From Gari tellinella (Eukaryota; Mollusca; Bivalvia; Cardiida; Psammobiidae), in the NCBI GenBank assembly GCA_922989275.2, contig OV277863.1:48590999-48654998 (forward strand): 64,000 nt of DNA, in the 5' to 3' direction. The position numbers and the translations under genes were made by a program. The notes under the pieces are model-generated. The model saw only the letters and a list, made by a program, of their open reading frames with translations. It made no database searches and was not told the origin of the DNA. Below, in pieces: positions 39,512 to 60,179 of this stretch (within the stretch, counting starts at the first letter, position 1; every line of letters starts with the position of its first letter).

Positions 39512-39608
39512 GTAAGTATCGTTTTGTGCCTCGTGCTGCAAGTTTCTTGCATACTTCAGTTACACAAATAAATCTGCTGTTTGTGCCAAATGTGATGATG
39601 ATGATGAT

Positions 39609-41289: not shown

Positions 41290-41320
41290 CATGCTATTAG
41301 TATTTCTGTTTGTATTTCAG

Positions 41321-41387: not shown

Positions 41388-41827
41388 GTAGGCAGTCAAA
41401 ACAATGTTAACAATTCAACCCTAGCCACAAGTATACACAGCATTAACAAACAGTGTACTAGTAAGGAGTATACTTGTCCTATGCAGACAGTGTAGAACTT
41501 GATCAGGAAGAACTGATACTTTTGTTGGAAGAACTTGTAGCCTGACCCTTTCTTGTATATATACGAAGCTACCACATGTAATTGTAATATCAAATATTGG
41601 GCAATACAATTTGTTTTATAACTAAAACTTACTATATATCTATTTCATTTAGTTGTCATTGTTTAAAACATTTATCGTCAAAATATATAGGAATAATTTG
41701 TGGATATTAACTATTTACCCATTATAGTTGAAATTGACTGAGTAAAAATAAACCGTGCAGGCTTTGATGAAATACCACACTTTGCATTGTGTATCAATAC
41801 AAAGTCAGATATAAACTGGTTTATAAG

Positions 41828-42034
41828 TACAATTAAAAACCTCTGTAACGACCAATAAGACATAGTAATTTTAATGTGTTTAAAGCAGGTGGCTGCTGAG
41901 AGCAAGATGAAAGGAAAACAGAAGGCTCCTTTTGGAGCTTTCTGTTTTACTTTCAACTTGTTTTAAGTAGTCTCCTGTCGTTTATGCCATCAATTAGCCT
42001 TCTTGTTAGTGGTAGTAATAGAGATGTTTTACTG
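41828..42034. mobile_element. Fam-5 MITE, diverged
   Basis: attaaaaacctctgtaacga ... gtaatagagatgttttactg; core gctccttttggagc. Confidence 0.82.
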
Positions 42035-42070
42035 TACAGAGAAGATGACATCTTTGCCCTAAATTATATA

Positions 42071-42316
42071 CAGTAGAGAAAACGTTATTTTTTTCCAATA
42101 AACACGTTACGCTCAATCTATTATTCCCATTGCAAACAGTTAAGAGCCTGATCAGACGCCAGGTAACCCGGCGTCTGATCAGTCTCCAAACTGTTTGCCA
42201 CTCAGATTAAGATGAACATTTTGAATTGTCAAAAAAATATCAAATTCGCTATTTTACTACGGTGCGTTTGCGTTTCGTTTGTGTTTAAACGGAAAATAAT
42301 AATGTTTTCTCCACTG
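42071..42316 (+). mobile_element. Fam-4 MITE
   Basis: CAGTAGAGAAAACGTTATTT ... ttttctccactg flanked by TA; core C gacgccaggtaacccggcgtc. Confidence 0.92.
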
Positions 42317-42407
42317 TATCTTATAGAGCAGATGCAGCTTTTGACAGTTGACTCAGTAGTTACTGTATTTAGCCTGTATGAAAGCATTATCATTGTTTCT
42401 ATCACAG

Positions 42408-42556
42408 GTGTTGAACTTCACCGGGGACCAGGACATCTGTTACTATAACTTTGCCTGCATCCATCCATTGAAAAAACTAAGTGCCTTCAACAACGTCTTC
42501 AGCAACATTGGTTATGTCATGCTGGGTATACTCTTCCTCATTTTAGTCAAAAGGAG
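42408..42556 (+). CDS. SIDT2: SIDT exon 13: [10 protein letters not shown] loop and TM3
   Basis: Acceptor tctatcacag, donor gtaaat at 42557. Reads [20 protein letters not shown] then [20 protein letters not shown] and [10 protein letters not shown]. One of the most conserved stretches of the family, with a Cys pair in the loop. Confidence 0.97.
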
Positions 42557-42603
42557 GTAAATAACAGTGGTGGCTATATCTTTAAATATACAGTTTTACA
42601 CCT

Positions 42604-42855
42604 TTAACCCATTACTCCATGACCTTTTTCTAGTATTGAAGAGAGGTGACCACTTAAAGCAGGTTGAAAGTAAAGTAGAATGCGCCTTAAGGCACATTCT
42701 GCTTTACTTTCAGCCTGCTTCAAGCTTCAATATATAAGAATATAGAGAATACTTCTTATGATGTATAATCATGACAGTATAAATTGGCTCTATTTTCTTT
42801 TATGCAGGAAAAATCAAAAGGTGTAAAAAGACGTATTTATGGAGTAAAGGGTTAA
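42604..42855 (+). mobile_element. Fam-1 MITE
   Basis: TTAACCCATTACTCCATGAC to tatggagtaaaggg-TTAA. Confidence 0.92.
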
Positions 42856-42908
42856 TTTATTCCTCTGCTAAAGAAGATATATCCACTTTATACAGTTGGT
42901 GGTGTACT

Positions 42909-43046
42909 ACAGGATGTTGTATTCAGCTGTCGACGCTGTTAATGGAAACAGCCAATCAGACTTGCGCCAAAAGAGCTTGTTTGACCCTCGTCAAATTGAC
43001 TGTTCCACTTATAACATCTTGAGCTGAATACATTGCCCTGTATCCC
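42909..43046. mobile_element. Fam-14 short inverted-repeat element
   Basis: acaggatgttgtattcagct and agctgaatacattgccctgt pair imperfectly; centre gccaatcagacttgcgcc. Confidence 0.55.
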
Positions 43047-43183
43047 ACTGCCAACTGGTAATGTGTATTAATTAGCCAATGTAATAGTTCAGATATAGAT
43101 GTTCATAGTGGGCAGAGCTTTATATATGAATATTCAGCAGGAGAAGGGTTAATGATTGAATGATTACATACTATTTTCCAGAA

Positions 43184-43334
43184 CAGGGTCCATGGTTATA
43201 AAGTGTTTGAGTTGAGTCTGTAATTATTCTCAAGCATTTGATTGGTCAGATTTGAGCCTAGGCTCAAATCTGACCAATCAAATGTTTGAGAATGCACTCA
43301 GACTCAACTCAAAAGCTTTATAAGTGCTGGGCCA
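43184..43334. mobile_element. Fam-9 palindromic element
   Basis: cagggtccatggttataaag ... gctttataagtgctgggcc with inner arms tgattggtcagatttgagcc / complement. Confidence 0.8.
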
Positions 43335-43374
43335 GATATCATCATATTGACATTAACTTACTTTCTTTTGGCAG

Positions 43375-43423
43375 AGAAGTTCTCCATATGAGAGCAGTGC
43401 AGCAAAGTGCCGGTAGAGATAAG
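43375..43423 (+). CDS. SIDT2: SIDT exon 14: short cytoplasmic linker
   Basis: Acceptor cttttggcag, donor gttagt at 43424; 49 nt. Reads EVLHMRAVQQSAGRDK after a split Arg codon. Its last 15 or so nucleotides plus the donor are the founder of a tandem array in the following intron. Confidence 0.88.
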
Positions 43424-43825
43424 GTTAGTCATTTTTTGTGATAAATGTAAAAAGGTGCTGGTAGAGATACAGTCAGCACTTACTTGTTTTATAAGTGTAA
43501 CAAAGTAATTGGAAGAGTTAAATTAGCTCTTGGTTGGTAATTGCAACAAAGTGCTAGAAGAGATAAGGTTAGCCCTTGGTTGGTAAATGTTACAAAGTGC
43601 TAGAAGAGATAAGGTTAGCCCTTGGTTGATAAATGCAACAAAGTGCTGAAAGAGATAGGTTTTTTTTCTTGTTTGTTTGATGAATATAACAAAGTGCTGG
43701 CAAAGAATTGATCAGCCTTGGTTCATTTGATAAATGTATCAAAATGCTGACTGAGATAAAAAATTATGTATGATAAATTTTACTAAGTGCTGATAGAGAT
43801 GTAGTTAGCACTTGTTTTTTATCCC
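43401..43825 (+). repeat. Tandem array grown from the exon 14 donor site
   Basis: About nine diverged units of 43-51 bp. Each unit is caaagtgctgg-aagagataag-gttagcc-cttggtt-gataaatg with variations. The first unit is the real exon 14 end with donor at 43424. Units four and five repeat agataag|gttagc exactly (GT at 43568 and 43614). Confidence 0.88.
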
Positions 43826-44046
43826 ATTACTCCATAGATATGCTTTAATGCCTTTAATTTAGTTCTCTAAAGAAAGTAGTTCCGGTTTATACACTTATGA
43901 ATTGCACCATAAGATACATTAATTATCTGTATCTTAGCTGCTAAGCAGATAGGTAGCGTAAAGCTTAAGGTGCATCATGTCTTACTTTCAACCTGCTTTA
44001 AGTAGTCACCTGTCTTCAAAACTAGAAACAGGCTATGGGGGAGATT
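43822..44046 (-). mobile_element. Fam-1 MITE with a deleted arm
   Basis: cccattactccatagatatg ... aaacaggctatggggga; only one core A arm. Confidence 0.78.
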
Positions 44047-44138
44047 GTTAGAAAGCTCCAACGTACATGACAATTTATTGTCAATTTGCATGATAATCCA
44101 GGTTTTATTATTTGCTTGTAAATGCCTTTTTGTTTTAG

Positions 44139-44256
44139 CATTTTGGAATTCCTCAGCACTTTGGGATATACTATGCGATGGGTCTAGCCCTGTGTGTTGA
44201 AGGCTTCATGAGTGGCTGCTACCACGTCTGTCCTACAGTGTCCAATTTCCAGTTTG
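44139..44256 (+). CDS. SIDT2: SIDT exon 15: HFGIPQHFG helix and SGCYHVCP metal-site motif
   Basis: Acceptor ttgttttag, donor gtaaga at 44257. Reads [20 protein letters not shown] then [19 protein letters not shown]. The Ser and His of SGCYH correspond to residues of the proposed CREST-superfamily metal site. Confidence 0.97.
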
Positions 44257-44307
44257 GTAAGAGAGAAACTGTTCAATTAGTAAACACAATAGATAGATTT
44301 CTATATA

Positions 44308-44540
44308 ATCTGTTGAACACTAGTGACAAGTGATACACTTACAAACAGTGTATCAGTGAAGAGTATACTTGCCTGATACAAAACAGTGTCTTACCTAGAT
44401 CAGAGGATCCCTCTGATATGGGTCTGGATGGTTTGTGATTTTTGCAGTGTATTGTAAAAAAAAAACGACCACTAATAGTAAAAAAATTACTTGACTTTAT
44501 TTGTAACTGGAATTGTTCATTTGAAGTTTCAAGGCCAAAC
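44308..44540 (+). mobile_element. Fam-2 MITE relic
   Basis: ttgaacactagtgacaagtg ... gaattgttcatttgaagttt c; core B shortened. Confidence 0.7.
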
Positions 44541-44828
44541 CAAACTACAAGGACAGAGAGACAGTTTGGAGCTTAATTCTTTAATACACATGCAATTTTC
44601 ACAATCAAAATGCCTAGTGTCTACATTTAAAAAATAAATACAGACAACAGTTTTTAAGTAGACAGTGAGTATCATTGATGTGAAAGAGTTAAACCTTCCT
44701 CAACAGTTGTCAACCTCTTATAACTGTAGGACTTTTCCGCTTTAATTTATCCAGCACTTATCTGCAAACTACTTCATGTAATAAAACTTCATTTGGTGGC
44801 TGCTGAAAAATAGTTACTGTATACTGCT

Positions 44829-45055
44829 TTAACACATTCACCCCTATCCACCAGTATACTCGTCATTTACAAACAGTGTACCTGTGAGGATTACACTTGT
44901 CCTATGTCATATATTAGGGAGCCCTCTGATCAGGGTCTATACTGTTTGTCATTTTGAGTCATATTGTTTAAATCAACCATAAATAGTAAAAAATGGACTA
45001 GACTTATCTTGAAATCGGAATTGTCCATTAAAAGTTTCAGGGGTGAATGAGTTAA
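44829..45055 (+). mobile_element. Fam-2 MITE with a deleted arm
   Basis: TTAACACATTCACCCCTATC to ggggtgaatgag-TTAA; core B keeps one arm. Confidence 0.85.
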
Positions 45056-45191
45056 AAGTGAGTTTTGAACAATTTGATTTTAAAAGATAAATAATACAGT
45101 TCCTTGGAGTTATCACTCAATGCTTAGCCAGGGCAGGTCTTTCGGAGCTGTTTTTCAGATGTCAAATATTGGCTTGCTTTGTTTTTTTCAG

Positions 45192-45328
45192 ACACGTCCT
45201 TCATGTACATAATGGCTTGTCTGTGTATTCTGAAAATCTACCAGAACCGTCACCCAGACATCACAGCCAAGTCTCATTCCTCCCTGCTGGTAATGGCATT
45301 AATTATCATCATAGCTGTCATTGGAGTG
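45192..45328 (+). CDS. SIDT2: SIDT exon 16: DTSFMYIM helix and next helix
   Basis: Acceptor gtttttttcag, donor gtgagt at 45329. Reads DTSFMYIMACLCILKIYQNR then HPDITAKSHSSLLVMALIII and IAVIGV. The first Asp is the conserved metal-site Asp; KxYQxRHPDI is diagnostic. Confidence 0.97.
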
Positions 45329-45427
45329 GTGAGTCTATCTTAATACAACTTGAGATACATGCCCTATATAAACAGTATTCCTTTTTTATGCTTAGAGTAT
45401 GCAAGTCTCAGGCTCCATATAAGAGCT

Positions 45428-45830
45428 TTTAGCTCACCTGAGCTAGCTCAGGGTGAGCTTTTGCAATCCTTGAATGTCAGTCGTTCGTCATTTGTCGTTT
45501 GTCGTCAATAATTTTAGTGTTTATTCTCTAGAGGCCACAATTTTAATCCAATCTTTCTGTAACTTGCTCAGATTGTATATTACAATAAGAGTTCAGATGA
45601 GTTCGATTATGGTTGAAATCAGACCAATAGGTCAAGAGTTATCTACCTTTGAATTGCTGAAAATGCCATATTTAACAGTGTTTACCCTCTAGAGGCCACA
45701 ATTTGTAACTACTCATTAGAATCGTCTTGAAGAGACAATTCTAATTATTAGTCACACCATAGGGTTGAATGAAGTCATAAAGATTGAAGTTTTAAAAATA
45801 CTCCCCTTATCTAGAGCCTTGTTGTCACTG
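45428..45830 (+). mobile_element. Composite-element leader followed by Fam-8 fragment
   Basis: tttagctcacctgagctagc tcagggtgagctttt, then ctctagaggccacaatttt twice; at 45703 Fam-8 core tactcattagaatcgtctt begins and ends ccccttatctagagcc. Confidence 0.6.
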
Positions 45831-46319
45831 TTGTCAGTGAAGACCCACATCAGAGGTCTCCTACAAGATCCCTCTGATCAGGGTCTATACTGTAAAACAA
45901 ACAACCATAATATGTCTGCTTTAATTAACCATTTCTTGACTGACCTTTAAAATGGACTCTTCCACTTTCTGAATAATGACCAGTTACTTTGTTCTTTGAG
46001 GGATTCAGTTCCAAAGTAATTCTTTTTCTTGCTATCGATAATGAAGATGCTATCAATGTCGCCTGAGGTTACTTTGTAGTCAAAATTCTGATTATCAAAG
46101 GAATCAAAAGAAATTAAAGGCATGACAACCAGTGAACACCTGGTTATAAGGGTCCTACAGTTGTCCTCTGATCTACACTGTTTATAAATGATGTATATAC
46201 TTACTTCTTTGAGAGCCCCTCTAATATGTGTTTACCCCATGTTCAAATGATGTATATACATATGTACTCAATTCATGTACAGCAAAGATTAACAATTTTT
46301 CAATCATCTTCTATTTCAG

Positions 46320-46422
46320 GTATATGGAACGAATGTTTTCTGGATATTGTTTGCCTTAGTTTATATGTTAGGTTCACTGATCCTCAGTATCCACCTGTAC
46401 TACATGGGAAGATGGAGCTTAG
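46320..46422 (+). CDS. SIDT2: SIDT exon 17: LYYMGRW helix
   Basis: Acceptor ttctatttcag, donor gtaagt at 46423. Reads VYGTNVFWILFALVYMLGSL then ILSIHLYYMGRWSL, matching FWIxFxxxxxxxxxLLSxxLYYMGRW. Confidence 0.96.
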
Positions 46423-46457
46423 GTAAGTCTCTGTTACACCAAGTCTGTGTATGCCTG

Positions 46458-46882
46458 TTAACCCATTACTCCCTATATATGCCTTTTTACAGTGCTCCAG
46501 ATAAGGAGTAAATTGAACAAATCCAACATTTTCTCACACATTTCAGCATCAAATCTAATGATGTTACTACTCAATAGAACCGTCCTGAAGAGACGATTCT
46601 AATGAGTTGTGACAACATTGGATTTAATGTAGAAATAAGAGAAATAAAGATTTTAGTCTTTGAAATACAGGTACTACCCTCTTCTTGAGCTCTGTTTTTA
46701 CGTATTTATTTATTCATGCATTAAAGATAATAGTTCAAATTCATACAGTCATGTACATGTACCATAAGAAATATTTTCTACATGCTATCAGATGGTAGCT
46801 TAAAGCAGGCAGAAAGTAAAGCAGAATGCACCTTAAGGCGCATTCTGCTTTACGGTCAACCTGTTTTAATTGGTCCCCTGCC
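46458..46882 (-). mobile_element. Fam-1 MITE hosting a Fam-8 copy
   Basis: ttaacccattactccctata left; core A at 46798-46870. Split at cttttta by the insert. Confidence 0.82.
46489..46695. mobile_element. Fam-8 MITE with 6-bp target duplication
   Basis: CAGTGCTCCAGATAAGGAG ... TTGAGCTCTG; the host hexamer ttttta is present on both sides. Confidence 0.85.
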
Positions 46883-46904
46883 TTCAATACTTCAGGAATT
46901 CTTA

Positions 46905-47395
46905 TAAACCCAATAAATCTTAGCAAGGAGTATATTCATCCTTTAACAAAGAATAAACCTGTGAAGAAAACTGTTGTCCTATGTAAACAGCGAAGACCCA
47001 GATCAGAGGTCCTCTGATCAGGTTCTGCACTGTCTGTCACTATCCAATGTACCCTTAACATATCCTAGAAATGTAAAAAATGGGCTAAAGTTAATTGGAA
47101 ACTGGCATAGTGCATTGCAGTTTCAGGGATGAATGATTTACGGTAATGTAAATTTGTACTTAACTCTTTCAACGCCATGGACCATTTTGATGTATACTCA
47201 TTACATTTGCAAACAGTGCAGACCCAGATCAGAGGGCTCCTATAGGAGCCATCTGATCAGGGTTTACACTGCTTGCTAATTTCAACCAGAATTTGTTAAA
47301 GTACCTAAAATTACAAGCAGACTGGTTCATGTTTTGGAAATTAAATGATCCACATAGGGAACCTCATAACCCACAAGAGTTACTTAGTGTTGAAA
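46905..47395 (+). mobile_element. Two Fam-2 type copies in row
   Basis: First (46905-47145) has eroded ends and a core B half. Second (47160-47395) begins ttaactctttcaacgccatg with core B apex ctcctataggag. Confidence 0.72.
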
Positions 47396-47431
47396 GATAA
47401 AATGAATATACATGTATTGTGATTTTTTTAG

Positions 47432-47505
47432 ACCGATATGTGTTTAAGCGACTGTGTGTGTTGATAAGAACAGACTGGCTTACCTGTCGCAGACCAGTTT
47501 ATATG
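47432..47505 (+). CDS. SIDT2: SIDT exon 18: cytoplasmic linker
   Basis: Acceptor attttttag, donor gtatgt at 47506. Reads DRYVFKRLCVLIRTDWLTCR then RPVYM, aligned with DxGIFRRxLxVLYTDCIRQCxxPLY of vertebrates. Confidence 0.93.
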
Positions 47506-47707
47506 GTATGTTGTATTACATGTACTTGTACTTTGAATAGGGAAATATTAAAAAGGAGATACAATGGCCACAACTAAACATTTCCAAAAAGTAGATGTCT
47601 CCAGAAGTCTCTGGTTGTTCCTTTACAAAAGTATGTTAGGATGCTTATACCCTTGCCTGATAAATGTTAATGTACTTAAGAAAACACTGATGATGTTGAA
47701 TGCATAC

Positions 47708-47876
47708 ACATTACCAGTTGACAGTCCGATACAGAGTGATGTATTTAGCTCGAGACGTTTTTGGCCGAAATAGCCGATCTGACGAGCGCCTTGGCGCGAG
47801 TCTGATCGGTTGTTTCCGCCAAAAACGCCAAGAGCTAAATGCAACACTCTGTATCGGACTGTCAACTGGTAATGTG
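47708..47876. repeat. 169-bp palindrome (SIDT intron 18)
   Basis: cacattaccagttgacagtc cgatacagagt and complement close an almost perfect hairpin; apex gacgagcgccttggcgcgag. Confidence 0.9.
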
Positions 47877-48219
47877 TTTATTATATGCCTTGAATACACT
47901 CCAGAAACAACTAAAAAGTTGTTTAAATAATTTTATATCCAGAACCATTAGTTATTTGAAGCAGAACAAAGAATTATTGTAGGCCACAAAGATTAACGCG
48001 GGACTTGTACCTGAACGTAAACGACGTCACGCTAAATCGAAAACGAGGTTGGAGTAAAATACAAGGTGGCTGATACAAGGTGGCTGATACAGACTCTTGT
48101 ATTTTACTCTGCAGATACACGCGAAAAAGCTCGATATCATACGAAGGCATATAATAAAGGTGTTTACTGAAAGCAACAGGAAAGTAAAGCAGAACTTTGT
48201 TCATTACCATTGTTTTGCA

Positions 48220-48446
48220 TTACCCCATAGCCTGTTTCTAGAATTGAAAATAGGTGACAGCTTAAAGCAGGTTGAAAATAAAGCAGAATGCGCCTTAAGG
48301 CACATTCTACTTTACTTTCAGCCTGCTTTAAGCTACCATCTGCTAGAATATATAAAATAGTTCAAATGAAATATTATACTCATAACTGAATTTCTTGAGC
48401 GGAGGAATAAATGACAGGCATAAAAAGGCGTATGTATGGGTTAAAT
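48220..48446 (+). mobile_element. Fam-1 MITE, left TTAA lost
   Basis: cattaccccatagcctgttt ... cgtatgtatggg-TTAA; core A intact. Confidence 0.85.
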
Positions 48447-48524
48447 AACTCTGTCAGTGGCATAACCATATGACTAAACACAGGTTTGACTTTATAGAAA
48501 GAAGGTACCTTTTTCTTCTTGCAG

Positions 48525-48571
48525 AACAGACTGGTTTTGTTAATCATTGGGAACATCATTAATTGGAGCAT
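48525..48571 (+). CDS. SIDT2: SIDT exon 19: NRLVLLIIGNIINWS helix
   Basis: Acceptor cttcttgcag, donor gtaagt at 48572; 47 nt. Ends with 2 nt (at) of a split Ile codon that either exon 20 version can complete. Matches RMVLLxxGNxINWS. Confidence 0.94.
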
Positions 48572-48762
48572 GTAAGTATAAGTAATCTTGATGAATAACT
48601 CAGTTACCTAGTTAACAAAATAATATCTACATGTAATTGTATATATAAGACAGCAATTAATTGTATGTATAGTTAATTAGATAACAACTAACTGTATGCG
48701 GTTAACAAAATAACAACTAACTTTATGACTGTATAGTTAACAAATAACATATTGTTTCAGGA

Positions 48763-49912
48763 CTCCAGATAATTTTGCTTCTAATCAGTACAGTACTGAT
48801 CAATTTTGAAAACAATCAGTGCCCAGATTTTTTAATCAGTACACATGGATTTTCAATTCATCGGCAGATCGCGGGTTAAATGGCCAACTTTAGAAGAAAG
48901 GAAAAATAATGCCTCAGTAATTATGCTATACAACGTTTCAAATAACCTAATAGTTGTAGACCATAAACATCTCCATCCGTCAAGAAATCTCAACTTTGTC
49001 ATACCTTTCTCTACTAGGACACCGTATCACTCAAACTCATTCTTTCCACGTACCATCAGACTGGAATAATCTACCACACAGCACTAAGGCCAGTGACAGT
49101 CTCACAAGCTTCACTGTCAGCCTCAGATCTCACAACCCCTTACTGCATAAGTTGTTTTTAACTTTTTTAACCTCTGTTTATAATTGATCTTTCAGCTCTG
49201 CATTGTTTATAATTATTTTTTACTTTTTTAACACTGTCCCCGACCTTCCTGTCATTGTCAGAAATTGACAGTAGGGAGTAATAAAGTAGAAGTAGAAGAT
49301 AAAATATTAGATTATTGAAAATCCTAATTTACCTACATGTATATAAATTACGATTTTCAAGAATCTAACATTTTAGCCGCTTAGGCGGGTTTTTTCTCTG
49401 CCGATGAAACAACATTCAAATTTATATTGTTCAACAAACTACCACAAGTTTCATTAGGTGTTAGTTCCTTTAAATCAGATAGCTGACAACCGACAGTCTT
49501 CAACTTTCTATCGTTTTTCTGACTCTTCCATGCCAAGATTGACATTTTGTTGCGAGGTTTTCAACCAAAACACTTTTCGGAGAACTTGGATTTTATCGTC
49601 CATATATCAATGCAGATATAGATGAATATGCCAGTGCGTAGTAACCTCCCTTTGCTAACGGTGGGCAAGTAAAAAAATACCATACGATAAAACGAAGCTT
49701 CATTACGAGACTACCAATCAATAAAATTTGACATGTTGCGGTTGACTATTTGCAAATACATGTATCGGTATGACAAAAACTCGGCTTTTGATTTTATACA
49801 AGTGTCTCTGAGAATTTCTCACGTACACAGTACTTCAATATTTTGAAATTAACGGGTACACGGTCGAAACGTTCGTGTATTTCACTGAGTACGCGGGCTT
49901 ATCTGGAGCCCT
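48763..49912. mobile_element. Large Fam-8-type element, about 1.15 kb
   Basis: caggactccagataattttg at the left and cttatctggagccctg at the right; the hexamer ttgttt flanks both ends. Carries a LINE 3' relic inside. Confidence 0.65.
48865..49300 (+). pseudogene. LINE reverse-transcriptase C-terminal relic
   Basis: KWPTLEERKNNASVIMLYNV ... TRTPYHSNSFFPRTIR then, in another frame, DWNNLPHSTKASDSLTSFTV. The two frames meet near 49061, consistent with a one-base loss. Ends in a tagaag-rich tail. Non-functional. Confidence 0.8.
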
Positions 49913-49934
49913 GTTGTTTGTATAGCCAATAAAA

Positions 49935-50050
49935 TATTATTAATTTATGAAACTGCTCTTCTCTAGTAATTTGACCTCTAAGGGCCTTTTTAAAGAAAAA
50001 GGCCCTTAGAGGTCAAAATATTAGAAAAGAGCAGTTTTATAAATTACAAA
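49935..50050. repeat. Palindrome, about 100 bp
   Basis: gaaactgctcttctctagta atttgacctctaagggcc and complement around tttttaaagaaaaa. Confidence 0.88.
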
Positions 50051-50337
50051 TGTTATATTATTTTAATTCCCTATTTGAAATATTGTTATAATTATTGTGG
50101 AGTTTTAATAAGATAACAACTAACTGTATGTAATGAAATAACTAACTGTATGTGTATAGTTAACAAAATAACAACTAACTGTATGTGTATAGTTAACAGT
50201 AAAATAACAACTACATGTAACTTTATTCTGCAAGGACAATCTTTGCAGTTTGAACATGTTCAGGGCCACTTAATATAATGTTGATCCTCCATATCTAGAT
50301 CCAAACTATGGTTAATCATAGAATGCTTAGCGTGATA

Positions 50338-50637
50338 CAGTACTGAATCTTATTAAATTAACAATTTTTGCGATTCGCTTGCAATTCGATGGCGATTCAC
50401 TTGCGATTTCAAAATACTAATTTACACTCGGATAATTTTTCTTGAGTGGTGTATCTCACAAATGTTCGCAAATATGCCTTCGTTAATTTTTTCGATTCCA
50501 TTTTTGTCACAACCTCTTCTGAAAATTCGCGTTAAAGTATTCAAACATAGGATTTGTTTTTTGAAGCGCCCGATTCGATGGCAATTCGATGGCAATTCGC
50601 TTGCGATTATCAATTTAATTTAATAAGGTTCAGTACT
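50338..50637. mobile_element. Fam-11 TA-flanked element
   Basis: cagtactgaatcttattaaa ... tttaataaggttcagtactg with TA on both sides; sub-terminal gcgattcgcttgc repeats. Confidence 0.85.
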
Positions 50638-50889
50638 GTAAGACTATCATTTCCAAATAGTTTGGATCAATATTAAAGACAGCTTAGCACTGGGTATGAT
50701 CAGAATTCAAACTGTTTGACACTCATAGCAATGTTTATTTAATGAACATGCCTAAAATTTAACTTATAAAAATCACAACAATTTTATAATCAGACATTAT
50801 AACATCATGGAAAGTATTAAGAAAAAGAAGCTATATGCTAACCTACTGTATATCCTCATATAAACAACCCCTTGGGGGTGATGCTTACA

Positions 50890-51215
50890 AAGCTTAAAGT
50901 AGACTGAAAGTAAAGCAGAATGCTCCTTAACCCTTTCAACCCTAATCCCGCATATAGGCGTTCTTTTCAAACAGTATACATGTGAAAAGGGCATATGTCC
51001 TATGCAAACAGTGAAAACCCAGATCAGAGGGCTCCTTAAGGAGCCCTCTGATCTGGGTCTTCACTGTTTGTCATAATGCTAAACATTGACAAAAACAACC
51101 CTTAAAAGTCAGAAATGGACTAGACTAAAATGGAAACTGGGATTGTCCATTTGAAGTTTCAGGGAGGAAAGAGTTAAGGATCATTCTGTTTTACTTTGAG
51201 CTTGCTTTAAGCAAG
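50890..51215 (+). mobile_element. Fam-1 hairpin hosting a Fam-2 copy at its apex
   Basis: gcttaaagtagactgaaagt aaagcagaatgctcc-TTAA before and TTAA-ggatcattctgttttact after the insertion. Confidence 0.85.
50927..51177 (+). mobile_element. Fam-2 MITE, young-looking, just upstream of exon 20a
   Basis: TTAACCCTTTCAACCCTAAT to agggaggaaagag-TTAA, core B apex ctccttaaggag. Confidence 0.94.
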
Positions 51216-51261
51216 TTTCAGATGTGGTTGTGTTACGTTTCTAATGTGTTATTTTTCACAG

Positions 51262-51367
51262 TGCACTGTATGGGGGTATAAGTGCCCCTACAGATTTTGC
51301 TAGTCTCTTGTTGGGGGTGTTCATAGTAAATTTACTTTACTATGTAGTCTATTACTTCGTTATGAAG
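51262..51367 (+). CDS. SIDT2: SIDT exon 20a: alternative membrane segment, version a
   Basis: Acceptor atttttcacag, donor gtaagg at 51368; 106 nt. Reads ALYGGISAPTDFASLLLGVF then IVNLLYYVVYYFVMK. It aligns to [35 protein letters not shown] of vertebrates. Same length and phase as exon 20b. Using both copies shifts the frame and meets TGA after ten codons; skipping both also gives an early TGA in exon 21. Confidence 0.95.
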
Positions 51368-51517
51368 GTAAGGTATGCAGCTACCTTTCCTCGTGTATTG
51401 TGACCTGTTTGTGCCTGGAATGTCTAAATGGATGCTTCCTATATGCTTGTTGAATGAGTTTATTATCAACTACAAGGGAATAATATAGACACTGTCCGTT
51501 ATATTTTACTATACATA

Positions 51518-51710
51518 CAGTCAAACTTCTATAGCTCGAAGTCGGTTAAGTCGAACATACCCATATTTTAAAGTTAAAACGTGGCTTAGCCACGTTTTAA
51601 CTTTGAAATACAGGTATGTTCGACTTAACCGAGCATGAAATAATGCAGTTCATATGTTGAACTATCGGATAGTTCGAGTTAAGCGAGTTCGAGATATCGA
51701 AGTTTGACTG
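51518..51710. mobile_element. Fam-12 TA-flanked palindromic element
   Basis: CAGTCAAACTTCTATAGCTC ... atcgaagtttgactg with TA on both sides. Inner palindrome around acgtggcttagccacgt; lies between exons 20a and 20b. Confidence 0.92.
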
Positions 51711-51759
51711 TAAATGAAACTTGTGTACAGTGACAACTCAGTGAAGAAACAATGTGACT

Positions 51760-52010
51760 TTAACACTTTACCCAATAGCCTATTCCTAGTTTTGAAGACA
51801 GGTAAGCACTTAAAGCAGATTAAAGGTAAAGCAGAATGCACCTTAAGGCACATTCTTGTTCATTTTTAGCCTGCTTTAAGCTACTATCTGCTAGGATATG
51901 GAAAGCATTTCTTATGCTGCATATATTGACTGTATAAAGAGGAACTATTTTCTTCTGTGGAGGAATAAATTAAAGGTGTTAAAAGACATATATATTGGGT
52001 AATGGATTAA
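51760..52010 (+). mobile_element. Fam-1 MITE
   Basis: TTAACACTTTACCCAATAGC to ttgggtaatgga-TTAA; the end TTAA also starts a Fam-2 relic (52007-52250). Confidence 0.9.
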
Positions 52011-52390
52011 CACATTCAACCCTAGGGATAAGTATATTAATCATCTTTTGAAAGCACAACTCCTGTGTGAAAAGAGTGCTGTATAAATCTGGTATAATAG
52101 TAATCTATAAACACTACCTATTAAGAGTATACTTGTCCTAGTTGTGAATAGTGTAGATCTTGTTCAGAGGGCTCCTCCATGGTCTGCTCTGTTTGCCATA
52201 TCACTTAACATCAATGAGGCATACCCTTCAAGGGTCAGTATATACTATCTACCTGTACTTTACAAAAATTGGAAGAATTCATAAAAGGGGATCCTAGCGC
52301 AGTAGGCATTTATAGGTGCAACACAATCCTATCCTCAAACCTCACACCTCCATCATAGTCTTCATATAAGGTCTATATAATCAGGATTTA

Positions 52391-52595
52391 CAGTAAAACC
52401 TCTCTATTACCACCACTTAAAAGATGGTGAATTGATTGTTTAAAACACAATTAACAGCTTAAAGCAAGGTGACAGTAAAACAGAAAGTTCCTAAAGGAAC
52501 TTTCTGTTTTACTGTCACCTTACTTTAAGCAGTTACCTACCTTTAACACCTAACAATTAACACAATTTAGTGGTCGTAATAGTGAGGTATTACTG
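52391..52595. mobile_element. Fam-5 MITE
   Basis: CAGTAAAACCTCTCTATTAC ... gtaatagtgaggtattactg; core apex gttcctaaaggaac. Confidence 0.92.
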
Positions 52596-52639
52596 GCTTG
52601 TTCCCTGCCTTCCCTTATAAATAGCATTTGACTGAACTA

Positions 52640-52860
52640 TGGACAGAACATGTAGCAAGACGTAGCTTGAGATCCTCAGTTTCTGTAACAGCTTGCTGTA
52701 ATGTACCATCTTACATACGCAAAATGTTTGTTGACAGAGATTTTTAAAACTTGGACCGAAATTATTAAACAATTTAACATCACATGTGAAAATTCTGAAT
52801 CGGGGGATGTTTTTATGAAAAATCTCAAAACACTACTCTTCAGAATTTTTTACTGATGGT
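52640..52860 (+). pseudogene. LINE C-terminal relic between exons 20a and 20b
   Basis: EHVARRSLRSSVSVTACCNV then, after frame changes, LGPKLLNNLTSHVK and VFMKNLKTLLFRIFY. The RSLRSS...xxPKLxNNLPxHxK...FKxxLKTxLF pattern is typical of LINE ORF2 ends; several frame breaks. Confidence 0.65.
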
Positions 52861-53264
52861 TTGAAGTAAGTGTGTGATTGCAAAATAGTTTTCAGTGTTT
52901 TTGAAATATTTAGATACCTATATATACACTTTGGTTCTGTACTTTGATTTTTGTACTTAGCTCCTTAAGGAGCTGTCTGATCTAGATCTATTGCAATACA
53001 TTGCTAAAACAACCCTAAATAGTAAAAAATTGGCTAGACTTATCCATTTGAATTTTCAGGAAGGAAATAGTGAATGATTTTAAACCCTGAACCGACCCAT
53101 GCACAGCCATCTCAGACCATCATACACACACAGTCAAACTTATGTTTAGTGGTCTGTCAAAAGAAGGTGCAGTCTTTAATACTAGCGACAGCTTAACATA
53201 GGACAAAAGTAATGCAGAAAGCTCCTTTAGGAACTATCTGCTTGACTTCTGTTCTGCATTAACA

Positions 53265-53740
53265 CATCCAGCTCTTGGAATGAGTATGTTCATCATTTAC
53301 AGTGCATCTGTTAACTCTTTGAACCCTAGTCACGCATATGTGCGTCATTTGCAAACAGCGTACATGTGAGGAGTACACTTGTCCTATGCAAACAGTGTTG
53401 ACCCTGATCAGAGGGCTCCTTAAGGAGCCCTCTGATCAGGGTCTACACTGTTTGTCATTTTGACATATATTGTAAAAATCAACCCTTAAATGTCAAAAAT
53501 GGACTAGGCTAAATTGAAAATTAAAATTGTCCATTTGAGGTTTCAGGGAGGAAAGGGTTAAAATACACAATGTCATGGTCAATGCAAACAGTATAGACCC
53601 TGATTAGAGGACCAGGGTTGCACTGTTTGCCACTTTGCAATATATTGTAAAGACCAATTCTTAATAATCAAACATGGACTAGACTTAAGTAGAAACTGGG
53701 ATTGTCCATTTGAAGTTTCTGGGGTGAATAAGTTGAGCCT
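53265..53740 (+). mobile_element. Fam-2 cluster, intact copy inside a relic
   Basis: Intact copy 53311-53561 (TTAACTCTTTGAACCCTAGT to gggaggaaaggg-TTAA, apex ctccttaaggag). Relics on both sides, including a core B half at 53583-53632. Confidence 0.85.
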
Positions 53741-53849
53741 TCAAAGAATATCTGCAGAACACAGGTGTGACTGTAAAACTAATGTCCAGATAGCTTGAAT
53801 AAGGCAAGGAGAATAGTTACTGTATAATATTTTGAAAGTGCTTACATTT

Positions 53850-54300
53850 TATGCCCCCATGATCAAAATGAGGGACATACATGTACTATTTTACAACTGT
53901 TACTCTGTTTGTCCAATTGTTCCTTAGTCCATCCATCCACGTATATGGTACATATTTTTTCTATCCCAGATGTGCATATCGTCAAGAATTTTATGTTTCT
54001 TCATATTTTAAAAGAATCACTGTTGGTTAAACTTAGTCAATTTTTACATATACCTGTACATGCAGCTAGTGAACACACCCATGTCCATGTTTGAAAAATG
54101 ATTTTTTTCTCACAAATTTCAGTTTTCATACATCTCTGTTACTAAAGAGTTAATTGAATGCAGTACAGAGACCATGTCAAAATGCTTAGCTAGTCATGTT
54201 AGCAGCATGTATTGATCGAACTTTAACCATTTCCCCCCATAGAAGCATCCTATAGTGCATATACTTTTCACTCGTAGAGATGCCTTTTCAAGTTTTTACT
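53850..54300 (+). other. Composite-element relic, otherwise unassigned
   Basis: tatgcccccatgatcaaaat gaggg start and gtccatccatcc leader; nothing else recognised. Confidence 0.4.
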
Positions 54301-54309
54301 ATGCCTCTT

Positions 54310-54480
54310 TAACACATTGAAACCTAGTGATGAACATACTGGTCCTTTACAAACAGCGTACCAGTAAAGAGTACCTTTGTCTTGTGCAAACAGTGTAGAC
54401 TCTGATCTTTGAGGAGCTCTATGATCAGGGTCAGCACTGTTGGTTACTTTTCAAAATAATGCAGTAGATAACCCTAAATA
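54310..54480 (+). mobile_element. Fam-2 MITE relic
   Basis: ttaacacattgaaacctagt start; core B shortened (gtagactctgatctttgagg). Confidence 0.7.
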
Positions 54481-54511
54481 GTCATATGATAAATGGACTT
54501 AATTATTTTCT

Positions 54512-54770
54512 TTAACCCATTACCCCATAACCTGTTTCTAGTTTTGAGCACAGGTGACCACTTAAAGCAGGTTGAAAGTAAAGCAGAATGTGCCTTAGGG
54601 CACATTCTGCTTTACTTTCAGCCTGTTTTAAGTTACCATATACTAGAATATATAAAATATTTCTTATGGTACATATTCATGACTATACATGTATAAATTT
54701 GAACTATTTTCTTCAGTGAAGGGATAAATTAAAGGCGTTAAAAGGCACATTTATAGAGGTAATGGGTTAA
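54512..54770 (+). mobile_element. Fam-1 MITE upstream of exon 20b
   Basis: TTAACCCATTACCCCATAAC to agaggtaatggg-TTAA; core A apex gtgccttagggcac. Confidence 0.93.
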
Positions 54771-54986
54771 ATAGCCGTACAAAACCTAGTAGGTATATGG
54801 CTCAAGCAAGCTGAAATTAAAGCAGAATTTTGAATTATTTTTGACCTACTTTAAACAAATACCTTTCTGAAACACTCAAGATAGACTATGGGGGGAAATG
54901 GTTATTGCCCTGTTCAAGCTTTCTCTACTTATTCACCTAAATAAAGCCCTGTATTCTAAATGCAACCTTTACTTTTTCCCTCACAG

Positions 54987-55092
54987 CGCCTTATACGGAG
55001 TTCTGGTAGACCAGTCTGACTTTGCCTCTTTCCTCCTGGGCATATTTATAATCAACCTATTACTGTATATCATCATGTATATTGTGTGGAAG
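54987..55092 (+). CDS. SIDT2: SIDT exon 20b: alternative membrane segment, version b
   Basis: Acceptor ttccctcacag, donor gtaagt at 55093; 106 nt. Reads ALYGVLVDQSDFASFLLGIF then IINLLLYIIMYIVWK, identical to version a at 20 of 35 positions. The loop GVLVDQS replaces GGISAPT and the end is VWK instead of VMK. Open, undamaged and with good splice sites, so a live exon rather than a relic. The last 29 nt plus donor are triplicated downstream. Confidence 0.94.
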
Positions 55093-55285
55093 GTAAGTAT
55101 GACTGTAAATCATTTTTAGAGTATTGAATGTGAGAATGGTTGTATATCATCATGTATATTGTGTGGAAGGTAAGTATGACTGTAAATCATTTTTACAGTG
55201 TATTGAATGTGAGAATGGCTGTATATCATCATGTATATTGTGTGGAAGGTAAGTATGACTGTAAATCATTTTTATGCCCCCGGCA
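55064..55285 (+). repeat. Triplicated donor region of exon 20b
   Basis: tgtatatcatcatgtatatt gtgtggaag|gtaagtatgactgt begins at 55064 (real exon), 55141 and 55220, 77-79 bp apart and nearly identical. Donor GTs lie at 55093, 55170 and 55249. A fourth, diverged unit is at 56452-56510, beyond an inserted element. Confidence 0.95.
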
Positions 55286-56428
55286 TCTATAGATGCGGAG
55301 GCAAATAGTGATTGTCCTGTCCGTCCGTAACAAGTTAACTAGATTTTACCGTTTTGTCTAGCACCAATACCACTTACTCAAATGAGATACTTATGCAGTT
55401 GTTGCCTTGGACCATTCCCAATCCACCAATATCACCCAACTATCATTTTGACCTTGACCTGGACCTAATTTGGACTAAGAGTATTGTAAATGGGCCATTT
55501 CTTGGTTAACTAGATTTTACCGTTTTGTCTAGCGTCAACACTGGTTACTCTCATATGCTTGGATATTTATACAGTTGTTGCCTTGGACCATTCCTTATAT
55601 ACCATTCTAACACGACTCGAAACCTACGGCATATAGACAAAGAATACCGAGAAACGTATATTACGTCGCGATAATGAACTGCACGCGCGGCGTTTCCATC
55701 CGCTGTTACATTTGACCCATACGCGTAATACATAATAATTATATTTTTTATAATAAAAGTCGCGTTAGAATTAAATCTGTCATTCCTTCATTCTAACACG
55801 ACTCGAAACCTACGGTATATAGACAAAGAATACCGGGAAACTTATATTACGCCGCGATAATGAACTGCACGTGTGGCGTTTCCATCCGCTGTTACATTTG
55901 CCCCATACGCGTAAAACATAAATAGTTTTTTTATAATAAAAGTCGCGTTAGAATTAAAATAACAAATTCGTACGTGTCCATTACCGTGCATTAGATCACA
56001 GTTAGTCGTTGAGATGTGGATAATTAGATCACTCGGCCTAAAGGCCTCGTGATCTAATGAATCCACATCTCAACTCCTAACTGTGATCTAATGCACGGTA
56101 ATGAACACCTACGACTTTGTTATTTCTTAAATAACACCCAGCCTTGATTTTTACCTTGACCTTAACCTGATTTTGACTTAGAATATTTTAAATGGCTTAT
56201 TTCTTGGTGAACTAGATTTTAACGTTTCATCTTGTGTCAACACTACTGACTACAATGCTTTGCTACATAATAAAATTGTTGTCCTGGACCAATACCAATT
56301 CACCCGTATTACCCTACCTCAATTTAGCCCTGACCTTGACCTTATTTGGACTAAAAAAAAATCAGAATATATTGTCAAGGCTGCCACTAGGGGCATAAGC
56401 GTTTATTGAACAGGCAGTCTTGTTTTGA
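55273..56428 (+). mobile_element. Composite GTCCGTCC-type element inserted in the donor array
   Basis: ttatgcccccggcatctata leader with gtccgtccgt; repeated body phrases (ttaactagattttaccgttt; cagttgttgccttggacca); end gcataagcgtttattgaaca ggcagtcttgtttt. Holds a nested terminal-hairpin element (about 55607-56113). Confidence 0.65.
55971..56113. repeat. Long hairpin, terminal type
   Basis: cgtgtccattaccgtgcatt agatcacag and complement pair over about 60 bp; apex actcggcctaaaggcctcgtg. Confidence 0.9.
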
Positions 56429-56539
56429 TTGTATTGAATGAGAGGAATGACTGTATATCATCATGTATATTGTAAGACAGGTAAGCATGACTGGAAATCA
56501 TTCTGTACTTTGTATGTCTGCAATTATGATCATCATATA

Positions 56540-56744
56540 CAGTAAAACCTCTCTTTTATGACCACAAAAGTGTGTTAATTATTAGGTGTTTAGGACAGGT
56601 GGCTGCTTAAAGCAAGGTGACAGTGAAACAGAAAGCTCCTAAAGGAGCTTTCTGTTTTACTGTCACCTTGCTTTAAGCTGTCACCTGTCTTCTAATCAAT
56701 CAACTAACCTTCGTTTTAGGGGTCGTAATAGAGAGGTTTAAATG
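56540..56744. mobile_element. Fam-5 MITE
   Basis: CAGTAAAACCTCTCTTTTAT ... gtcgtaatagagaggttta; core gcaaggtgacagtgaaacag with apex ctcctaaaggag. Confidence 0.9.
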
Positions 56745-57267
56745 TATATTGACAGTACGGTAATTATGACTAAATCATTCTGTAAATTGTGTTGGTTGTA
56801 TCTTATTCTGTAAATTGAACTGAAATTGATCGTCAGGATTGCAAATGACAGTACATTTGAGCCATGGCAGTTAAAGTTAGTCTACAGCTGTTTTTACACG
56901 TATGGATAATTTCATAGATAATTTTCAACTTCTTTTCATGAATTTGTTATTCAAGTAGATCAGTTTTGGAATCAATTAAACTCCCCCCTTGAAACTGACA
57001 AAAATAGTTAGTGATCATCAATGAAAAAAACATGGCAATTTCTAAAGAAAACTTCTGCTTAACTCAGTAAAAAAGTAATGCAGAATATTCCTACAGGAGC
57101 TTCTTGTATTACTTTTGTCCTGCATTAAGATAGCACCTCATAATATATAAGACTTCAAAACCATATCATTTTGAGAAGTGTTTGTACATAGGTTTTACTG
57201 TATATAATGTACTTGTAATATATAATGTACATGTAATTTACAATGTACATGTAATATATATTATTAT

Positions 57268-57845
57268 ACTGCAAAGTAAATTCCTTACTTCTGATTGGGT
57301 ACCAATCCGTAGACATGATCCCAAGTACCCTGTGAGCTGACAGGGTACATAGAAATACAGATATTTTCATTGGCTGACAGGTCCCTGAGCCTTGCTTTGC
57401 AGAAAATAAGATGGCCGACTGCTCGACAAGATCGAGTGCATTCAATCGTGCATCCTCTGTTTTAAGTTAATTTCTGCTAAGAACCAATCGGGGTTGGATC
57501 TTTCAACAGTCACATTTTTTCTAGGAAAGTTTGACGCCAACGTCTACGAGTGTGCCCATCTTTCTTGTGAATAAAAACCGTCAGAAACATTACGTCATTT
57601 TCGCTCAACGTCATCTGTTTTGACGCAATTTCGTTACTGTTTACTATGAGCGCTGTACACAACAAATTCCGAAATATTTCGTTTAAACAGTGAAAACTTT
57701 GCATTATAATAAATTCGTTATACAGTTTCTTTACAGTGTACATGAGGATTTATTCCCTGCTGGTAAAATCATGTAACCCTCGCCTAATGGCTCGGGCAAC
57801 ATGATTTACCTCAGCCAGGAATAAATCCTCATGTACACTGTGAAA
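57268..57845. mobile_element. Terminal-hairpin element (SIDT intron 20b)
   Basis: Body with tctgattgggtaccaatcc and repeated acgtca words; closes with a hairpin 57722-57845 (cagtgtacatgaggatttat ... apex ccctcgcctaatggctcggg). Confidence 0.65.
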
Positions 57846-57908
57846 TAATTGTACTAATAATGTACATGTAATCATTTAGGAGAGGTTTCTATTTATTGCT
57901 ATATATCA

Positions 57909-58195
57909 GGGCCTCCATGGCCAGGTGGTTATAGTGGCTATGACTGAAATTCACTAAGCTCCTCATTGCTGTGATTTCAAACCCCAGTTTGAGCACTTTG
58001 GAAAATTTTGTCTTGTGGGGAAGCCTTCCAGCTGGCTTGCGGAAGTCAGTGGTTCTACCCAGTTGCCGATTTATGCCTGAAACAGTGTAAAAGAGTGTCT
58101 GGGGTCTTCCTCCACCTGTAATAAGATGGACATCATGATATGACTAAAACATTTGGTAAAATAGGCGAAAAATCATAACAAATGAAATCAAATGT
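57909..58195 (+). mobile_element. tRNA-derived SINE, same family as 1276-1553
   Basis: gggcctccatggccaggtgg head, gccttccagctggcttgcgg body. Direct repeats tgctatatatca (57897-57908) and tgctatgtatca (58196-58207) with one mismatch. Confidence 0.88.
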
Positions 58196-58253
58196 TGCTA
58201 TGTATCAAAGTTATGTGCTATTTGTTTGACATTATTTTGATCTTTATTTTCAG

Positions 58254-58364
58254 TGCATATCCAATGAGAAGATTCCTGTTTTGACCATGGTGTTTATTGC
58301 AATGTCACTGATTACCTGGGTCTTTGCTCTATGGTTCTTTGTTGCCCACCTAACATCATGGCAG
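58254..58364 (+). CDS. SIDT2: SIDT exon 21: penultimate helix
   Basis: Acceptor ttattttcag, donor gtaata at 58365; 37 codons. Reads CISNEKIPVLTMVFIAMSLI then TWVFALWFFVAHLTSWQ, like GERIxxxPLLxIxxTxVxWGFALxFFFxxLxTWQ. Confidence 0.95.
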
Positions 58365-58429
58365 GTAATAGAGAGAGGTCGTTCTTAGATGAAGCTTGTC
58401 AAAGACATGGCTGCTTAACCTATTACCCC

Positions 58430-58825
58430 ATAGATACACATTTTAACCCTTCATCTCATATATTATTGTAAATATTATTGTGTATATAGTTTTGAATATA
58501 GGTAACCACTTAAAGCAGGTTGAAAGTAAAACAGAATGTGCATTACGTCCAGCCTGCTTTAAGCTACAATCTGCTAGGATAAAGATATTTTTTCTTATGC
58601 TACATGTTTTTTGACTGTGTAAATTTGAACTATTTTCTTCAGTGGAGGAATAAATTTAATGCGCTAAAAGGCACTTTTATTAGAGAAAGGATACACACAC
58701 TCTAACTTAAAACAGGTGAAAGTAAACCAGAATGCTCCTAAAGGAGCATTCTGCTTTACATTCAACATGCTTTAAGTGATAACCTGTCTTCAAAACTTGA
58801 AACAGGCTATGTGATAAAGGGTTAA
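58430..58825 (+). mobile_element. Rearranged Fam-1 cluster
   Basis: Several partial ends and two core A arms (58517-58560, 58705-58770); ends gtgataaaggg-TTAA. Confidence 0.7.
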
Positions 58826-58870
58826 TGTATGACAGAATTAAAGCAGTCAGCAAAAGCAAGATATACATAT

Positions 58871-59129
58871 GAGCCGTGCCGTAAGAAAACCTGCCTTATT
58901 TCATTGCTAATGTTGTAGATCAAGGTCAGCCGCCGCGTCTTTGACGCGGCAGCTCGCTTTGATCTACACTATTTGACACCCACAATCATCTACAGTATTG
59001 TATTTAGCAGTATTATCTGCAACAGTTGGCAGTGTAGACAAGCTCAGATGCAGAGCCTTGGATGTTAAAGGTGCCTGGTCTGTTGCAATGTTCCAATGCA
59101 ATAAGGCAGGTTTTGCCATGGCACGGCTC
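58871..59129. mobile_element. Fam-13 inverted-repeat element
   Basis: gagccgtgccgtaagaaaac ctgcctta and taaggcaggttttgccatgg cacggctc at the ends; inner hairpin gccgcgtctttgacgcggc. Confidence 0.82.
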
Positions 59130-59226
59130 AAATAGGTTTAGCCGTACATGAATCTATACTTTTGTTACACATGTAGCTGAAATTGAAGAATTACTTAGTA
59201 CATGTATCTATATTGTTGTGTTTCAG

Positions 59227-59340
59227 TTATCACCAGCAGGCTCAAGGGAAGGTAACAAGGAGTGTATCCTGTTTGAGTTTTATGACCACCACGATGTCTG
59301 GCACTTCCTGTCCGCCATCAGTCTCTTCTTTTCATTCCTG
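59227..59340 (+). CDS. SIDT2: SIDT exon 22: [10 protein letters not shown] metal-site histidines
   Basis: Acceptor tgtttcag, donor gtaaat at 59341; 38 codons. Reads [20 protein letters not shown] then [18 protein letters not shown]. The HDxWHFLS motif carries the two C-terminal His residues of the metal site. Confidence 0.97.
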
Positions 59341-59554
59341 GTAAATACAGTAGAGCAGACATTATTCTTTACCATTTAAACATTAACAAAATGCAATCAT
59401 AATGCAATAAAATGAGGAAAATTACAACTTCCTGAATGCTTTGTCAAAACTATTTGTTTATGGACTAGAAGGTTAAATGGCCCCTCATAAGAATATGAAG
59501 TCTTCATGCAGGTTGTTGTGAAAATATCTGTTACCTGTCAATCAACAGTGATAT

Positions 59555-60055
59555 GTCATTAACCCATTATCCCTTAGCTTGTTTCTAGTTTTGAAGAGAG
59601 GTGACTACTTAAAACAGGCTGCAAGTGAAGCAGAATGTGCATTAACTCATTACCTCATAGCCGGTTTCTAGTTTTGAAGATAAGTGACCACTTAAAGCAG
59701 ATTGAAAGTAAATCATTCTGCTTTACTTTCAGCCTGCTTAAAGCTACCATCTGCTAGAATATAGAAAATATTTCTATTGTTTAGTATTCATTACTGTATA
59801 AATTGGAACTATTTTCTTCAGTGAAGGACTAAATTAGAGGTGTAAAAAGGCATATATAGGGTAATGGGTTTAGGCGCATTCTGCTTTATATTCAGTCTGT
59901 TTTAAGCTGTCATCTACTAGGATATAGAAAATATTTCTTATGATACATGTACATACTCGGAACTGTATAAAGTGAAATTACTGGTAATTCATTCGATTGG
60001 GGAATAAATTAAATGCATTAAAAGGCATAGTTATGGAGTAATGAGTTTAAAGTTA
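59555..60055 (+). mobile_element. Nested Fam-1 cluster before exon 23
   Basis: A copy starting ttaactcattacctcatagc is inserted at gtgca-TTAA of an outer copy starting ttaacccattatcccttagc; the outer core arm resumes ggcgcattctgctttata. Confidence 0.8.
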
Positions 60056-60116
60056 GTTTACTATTTCCTAAAGGATAATTATAAACCCTATATGCTAAAA
60101 GACAATATCTTTCCAG

Positions 60117-60179
60117 GTTATTCTCACATTGGATGATGAGATTATTTTCCTACAACGCAGCCAGATTGTCGTATTCTAA
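60117..60179 (+). CDS. SIDT2: SIDT exon 23: C-terminus and stop
   Basis: Acceptor tctttccag; stop TAA 60177-60179. Reads VILTLDDEIIFLQRSQIVVF, matching LVLLTLDDDLDxxQRxxIxVF, the conserved C-terminus of SIDT1/2. Confidence 0.96.
   Translation, partial: VILTLDDEIIFLQRSQIVVF

Follow-up and report, generated by a model that had tools for sequence, protein, structure and literature searches.

Tandemly duplicated exons in a clam SIDT gene, probably retained as a mutually exclusive pair

The window analysed here, a stretch of 64,000 nucleotides from the bivalve Gari tellinella (contig OV277863.1, positions 48,590,999 to 48,654,998 of the forward strand), carries on its plus strand one gene of the SIDT/SID-1 family (PF13965), in which two homologous exons, designated 20a and 20b, stand in tandem. 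We conclude that the two very probably arose by an old duplication of one SIDT exon and have been kept as a mutually exclusive pair. This reading of the sequence is supported by their equal length and phase, by the U2-type splice sites of both and by the single segment of the fold that both would encode. According to a passage of PMC3228551, only 90 of 16,180 non-exclusive exons of the Drosophila X share such features.

Reading frame, sequence and genomic context of the exon pair

Exons 20a and 20b each take the nucleotides AT of a split codon from exon 19 and end at a codon boundary. The splice orders 19-20a-21 and 19-20b-21 are both open through the end of exon 23. When 20a is joined to 20b, a TGA is reached after ten codons of 20b; joining exon 19 to exon 21 also gives a TGA. 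These two stops precede the last junction by 298 and 194 nt, respectively. Transcripts with both exons or with neither meet an early stop because 106, the length of each exon in nucleotides, is not a multiple of three. These joins demonstrate, as far as the sequence goes, a frame filter that allows one of the two exons in a full-length protein. The coordinates, 106-nt lengths, shared phase and protein identity (20 of 35 residues; 21 of 36 counting the split codon) were reproduced as the original prediction had given them, its exon numbering fits the gene model, and the TGA codons that it had foreseen for both joins were recovered. Its claim that both exons are open with good splice sites also held, the sites being ag/gt in U2-type contexts comparable, by sequence, with those of the other SIDT exons.

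We propose that each mature full-length mRNA would take exactly one of 20a and 20b, a regulator presumably choosing between them, and that the two proteins would differ only in the end of transmembrane helix 8 (TM8), the extracytosolic TM8-TM9 loop and TM9. Transcripts with both exons or neither would meet their early stop and be destroyed, probably by nonsense-mediated decay, or would give a protein without TM10-TM11.

A hidden Markov model (HMM) was trained on 63 unique SIDT segments from outside Imparidentia, that is, on the 71 unique segments of homologues P0001-P0126 and the window less eight Imparidentia-like rows. Against the six-frame translation of the window it scored 20b at 55.1 bits (E 9.8e-16) and 20a at 54.1 bits (E 2.1e-15), while the next-best match reached only 7.8 bits (E 0.61). 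This outside profile ruled out chance open frames as the origin of the two exons, and a third copy of exon 20 in the window was likewise rejected, with nothing above 8.3 bits.

At the DNA level 56 of 106 nucleotides are identical between 20a and 20b, and identity over codon positions 1, 2 and 3 is 18, 28 and 12 of 36, which indicates that synonymous sites are saturated while the protein has been kept. Such a codon pattern needs, on our reading of it, long selection on the protein in both copies. Of the dN/dS comparison suggested in the original prediction, dN could be obtained (0.41, NG86), but dS was saturated and not computable, and with it the ratio. A second SIDT gene or an assembly duplicate was rejected as the source of the two copies, their DNA being only 53% identical and none having turned up among the best candidates scored in the genome searches. 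In the 1.6-Gb genome (80 contigs), all seven matches of a PF13965 profile search lay in this locus, as did 17 of the 22 matches of a 528-aa SIDT protein query, the remaining five having E values of 0.03-5.8 and internal stops. No second SIDT locus was found among the best candidates scored, 14 for the profile and 24 for the protein query.

The introns around the pair span 48572-51261 (2690 nt), 51368-54986 (3619 nt) and 55093-58253 (3161 nt). These three are about threefold longer than most introns in the 3' half of the gene, which are mostly 0.7-1.0 kb, with one of 1.8 kb. Many related palindromic foldback repeat elements occur in 48572-58253 and in other SIDT introns, and 66 inverted-repeat pairs of at least 20 nt were counted in 48572-58253. 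The 79-bp tandem repeat that begins inside 20b copies the last 30 nt of the exon together with its donor, placing three donors in a row; the second or third, if used, would break the reading frame. A degenerate further copy of this repeat was seen by eye near 56433-56505.

A 633-aa query assembled from most SIDT exons covered the whole PF13965 profile (1-594, of 594 positions) at E 1.2e-210, and the C-terminal 378 residues of the assembled clam SIDT match solved chains of human SIDT1 and SIDT2 (PDB 8jul, 7y63 and others). By tblastn with three homologues, SIDT exons span about 26 kb to 60176. The likely start codon is at 24457, the first SIDT exon having been picked by eye, and the stop codon occupies 60177-60179. 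The boundaries of exons 3, 4, 6 and 10 are approximate (no clean ag/gt) and are used in none of our claims. Upstream of the gene, at 5910-8941, near-identical short open stretches are repeated (PLGQVSTILTGSCLKQ and variants); this is probably a minisatellite array.

Table 1. Coordinates of the SIDT gene and associated features in the window
Feature	Position	Strand	Details
SIDT gene	24457..60179	+	About 23 exons; Pfam PF13965, tblastn with P0001, P0003 and P0004
Exon 19	48525..48571	+	47 nt; end of TM8; leaves 2-nt split codon AT
Inverted-repeat arm flanking 20a	51005..51070	.	Partner 53389-53454, 91% complementary; self-palindrome; role speculative
Exon 20a, a-type	51262..51367	+	106 nt; IALYGGISAPTDFASLLLGVFIVNLLYYVVYYFVMK including split codon; acceptor ttttcacag, donor gtaaggta
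210-nt inverted-repeat arm flanking 20b	52386..52595	.	Partner 56540-56749, 83% complementary; role speculative
Exon 20b, b-type	54987..55092	+	106 nt; IALYGVLVDQSDFASFLLGIFIINLLLYIIMYIVWK including split codon; acceptor ccctcacag, donor gtaagtat
79-bp tandem repeat	55063..55274	+	2.7 copies, 96% matches; begins inside 20b
Exon 21, common downstream exon	58254..58364	+	111 nt, phase 0; TM10
Exon 22	59227..59340	+	TM11, with zinc-site histidines in HDVWH (alignment to human SIDT1 and a passage of PMC11137008)
Exon 23, last exon, coding part	60117..60176	+	tblastn

Exon types in other clams and the age of the duplication

Among the best 120 of 2160 homologues, with types assigned by three residues, all have the segment encoded by exon 20. 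It is of ancestral type in 114, of a-type in two (Mercenaria X2, P0003, and Mya arenaria X2, P0007) and of b-type in four (Mya X1, P0002; Dreissena, P0005; P0001 and P0004). The six a- and b-type proteins are the top-scoring ones of this set, save for that of Sinanodonta (P0006), which carries the ancestral type. By taxonomy, Mya, Dreissena and Mercenaria are members of the Imparidentia orders Myida and Venerida, and Sinanodonta is a member of Palaeoheterodonta. The b-type P0001 and P0004 are encoded by contigs of 3102 and 2613 nt, giving 814 and 800 aa; the contigs are presumably spliced RNA. No relatives were found in viral contigs.

Isoforms with one or the other segment are known for orthologues only, as database models (Mya X1 and X2, Mercenaria X2). 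The sequences of Mya X1 and X2 do not differ from residue 1 until within the exon-20 segment, after which X1 is b-like and X2 a-like, a point of divergence that would be expected of alternative exons. In Mercenaria X2, an a-like segment is joined to exon 21 sequence in a full-length protein. Scallop isoforms X1 and X2 differ outside the exon-20 segment. The Mya isoforms, the full-length Mercenaria X2 and the b-like P0001 and P0004 contigs support, over and above the frame arithmetic, the original prediction that the exons are used one at a time. The duplication, which it had proposed to seek in other bivalve SIDT genes, is reflected at the protein level by a- and b-like segments in Mya, an a-like one in Mercenaria and a b-like one in Dreissena. 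The window exons fit these types in tblastn: of the two, 20a is the better match to Mercenaria P0003 (E 2.2e-8 versus 1.2e-4), and 20b is the better match to P0004 (E 4.5e-6 versus 0.002) and to P0001 (E 2.1e-8 versus 1.0e-5), the P0001 match extending upstream.

Segments share 22-27 residues among a-types and 20-28 among b-types, as compared with 14-21 between types. Of the 56 ways to divide the eight Imparidentia-like segments 3/5, the a/b split ranks first by within- minus between-group identity. In a 36-column tree, the a-group has support of 94/91 and the b-group of 72/91, and a sister relationship of Mya X1 and X2 was rejected (p-AU 0.021). The duplication thus probably predates the split of the Mya, Mercenaria and window lineages. 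A single early origin, though not proven, is made likely by the protein types and, moderately, by the 36-column tree. The exon pair appears, from these comparisons, to be common to at least two orders of Imparidentia and not private to this animal.

The swapped segment

Exon 20 aligns to residues 697-732 of human SIDT1 (hSIDT1), which comprise the end of TM8, the loop and TM9. Taking the D of DFAS as position 1, positions 5, 9 and 24 correspond in the alignment to hSIDT1 Tyr712, Ile716 and Met731. In the outside segments, position 5 is aromatic in 63/63, position 9 is Ile in 62/63 and position 24 is Met in 63/63. All three a-type segments have Leu at position 5 and Val at position 9, whereas none of the five b-type segments keeps Met at position 24, where Ser, Ala or Trp is found instead. 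Four of the five b-types also have an extra loop residue, which window 20b lacks. The marker residues are near-universal among closer relatives only.

Passages of PMC11137008 describe hSIDT1 as a zinc-dependent lipid hydrolase with a tunnel too narrow for double-stranded RNA, and the label of nucleic-acid channel attached to the protein in the original prediction therefore goes too far. TM9 lines the hSIDT1 tunnel past the zinc (same source, in part) and, in a passage of PMC11208740, stands at the edge of a lipid-binding domain formed by TM5-TM9. The zinc-site residues of hSIDT1 (His563, Asp574, His791 and His795, as listed in a passage of PMC11137008) are kept by alignment in the clam motifs CYHVCP, DTSFMY and HDVWH. 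Because these lie in common exons, the swap leaves them unaffected; what would probably set the isoforms apart is lipid substrate access, the response to cholesterol or RNA-uptake coupling, and not the zinc-site residues. Most plausibly, the swap tunes lipid access or gating. The same passages of PMC11137008 equate SIDT1 TM9 with TM5 of the adiponectin receptors, a helix in which the open and closed forms differ, and the adiponectin receptor passage names no exon switching. On this analogy, which is weak, TM9 might also gate the clam protein.

We tentatively suggest, as a possibility that we regard as doubtful, that the two exons split the tasks of the ancestral helix, each having broken a different near-universally kept residue or residues, and that clams may run two states of a SIDT hydrolase/transporter by splicing. 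Two such working states, if real, might for example open under other conditions of sterol, pH or temperature, or in tissues that take RNA from the water. Human SIDT1 and SIDT2 are of the same family and fold as clam SIDT, but the vertebrate SIDT proteins among the best 120 of 2160 homologues carry one ancestral-type segment, unlike the clam pair. Among length variants, the single one compared, an 832-aa primate form (P0113), differs from the 827-aa human form (P0056) by five extra residues at 656-660, outside the exon-20 segment.

Competing explanations and significance

Several observations weigh against a mutually exclusive pair of common ancestry. Exclusivity in this species is read from the sequence, and the isoforms recorded for Mya and Mercenaria are database models of unchecked read support. 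In the 36-column tree, placing window 20a and 20b as sisters, as expected of a lineage-private duplication, was not rejected (p-AU 0.41). A region search for more a-type proteins gave 15 candidates with one match, the source of the Mercenaria query, and missed Mya X2, which marks the search as insensitive. A search for fragments gave 59 proteins, of which 47 have the segment, none of a- or b-type by the residue rule (27 ancestral and 20 other; 12 lacked the segment); the 20 others of 47 indicate that the marker residues are variable among distant fragments, and the 63 outside segments behind the counts are phylogenetically non-independent. No significant clustering of variable residues on a single face of the helix was seen (P 0.26 for the positions specific to a type, 0.07 for the differences within the window pair), and that proposal was dropped. 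SIDT1 movement lies mainly in TM5-TM8 and is extremely different from that of adiponectin receptors, according to PMC11137008 in part. With three donors in a row at its 3' end, 20b might be spliced imprecisely. Finally, the tail of Mya X2 after the a-like exon is different and shorter, beginning VMASFNEH as if the intron had been read, and there may be a truncated third outcome beside the two full-length isoforms.

This last feature would be explained if 20a were mainly an alternative terminal exon, with a stop in the next intron and a shortened protein lacking TM10-TM11 and two zinc-site histidines, perhaps a dominant-negative product or a means of turning the gene down. The Mya X2 tail starts with V, as expected on read-through of a gta donor, and reading past 20a in the window gives VRYAATFPRVL and then a stop. 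However, Mercenaria X2 joins its a-like exon to exon 21 sequence at full length, window 20a has a good donor in phase with exon 21, and the Mya X2 model may be incomplete; we consider a mainly terminal 20a unlikely. It is less likely still that one exon, 20a or 20b, is a dying relic, used in an ancestor and unused in this species. The a-type has moved somewhat further from the ancestral type (16-22 of 36 identities, as compared with 16-26 for the b-type, over 12 outgroup rows), and the 20b donor region has been repeated, but both exons are open with consensus sites, have much the same score of 54-55 bits with the outside profile and have kept codon position 2 while losing position 3.

How one-of-two use would be brought about is a separate question, and here it is quite possible, if short of an even prospect, that 20a and 20b are independent cassette exons and that single-exon mRNAs are the survivors of decay, with no regulated splicing choice. 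Introns of the lengths given above make steric exclusion unlikely; a steric block was rejected on the 3619 nt between the exons, and U2/U12 incompatibility on the finding that none of three donors tested was U12-like. In humans, 377 of 629 clusters of mutually exclusive exons (MXEs) hold exons that are not a multiple of three, and 83 of the 377 show joining reads (PMC5740500, in part). Independent cassettes would have the same outcome at the protein level, and they compete with regulated mutual exclusion on mechanism only; flanking inverted repeats, which surround 11 of 12 exons tested, speak neither for nor against a structural switch. A switch of that kind, in which pairing of the inverted-repeat arms of Table 1 would loop out either 20a or 20b, is highly improbable. 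Both repeats are present, and the pair around 20b is the strongest among the 12 exons (222 bits, as compared with 130 for exon 18 and 94 for 20a). Being palindromic repeats, however, the arms can also pair within themselves, 11 of the 12 exons are flanked by such a pair, and introns about three times longer would be expected to hold more pairs. Tested against the other SIDT exons, an RNA-structure switch is weak and only possible.

A mutually exclusive 20a/20b pair would have well-known counterparts. Passages of PMC5740500 and PMC9741552 describe human tandem MXE sets that, like the clam pair, consist of adjacent homologous exons with the same length and phase, through which a single structural element is exchanged and the remainder kept as it is. 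Human MXEs are often not divisible by three, which causes a frameshift when both are included, and they are old with mostly conservative changes, as in the clam. The clam pair differs in its gene family and in that the part exchanged is a membrane helix, in a family of lipid hydrolases/transporters; SIDT occurs nowhere in the main texts of the two papers. A further bivalve case is exon 10 of oyster alternative oxidase, for which a passage of PMC5589949 reports an old tandem exon duplication giving alternative versions of one region, one exon copy being more conserved than the other. Those exons are terminal with their own stops and one of the two mRNAs holds both, whereas the clam exons are internal and frame-exclusive. 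Listings of the open-access literature included no study of exon choice in molluscan SIDT genes. Such exon pairs are well known, and we found none described in the SID-1/SIDT family.

SID-1 proteins have been studied for RNA uptake and as zinc-dependent lipid hydrolases, but there is no settled account of the way in which their membrane part is tuned. The present case contributes a pair of frame-exclusive exons from clams, apparently common to at least two orders. It offers a natural swap of TM9 alone, with the rest of the protein constant and otherwise-kept residues changed in a type-specific way, and such natural isoforms would let the role of TM9 in lipid substrate, cholesterol response and RNA uptake be tested directly. 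To judge from its gene, this clam is probably able to produce two SIDT proteins that differ in TM8-TM9.

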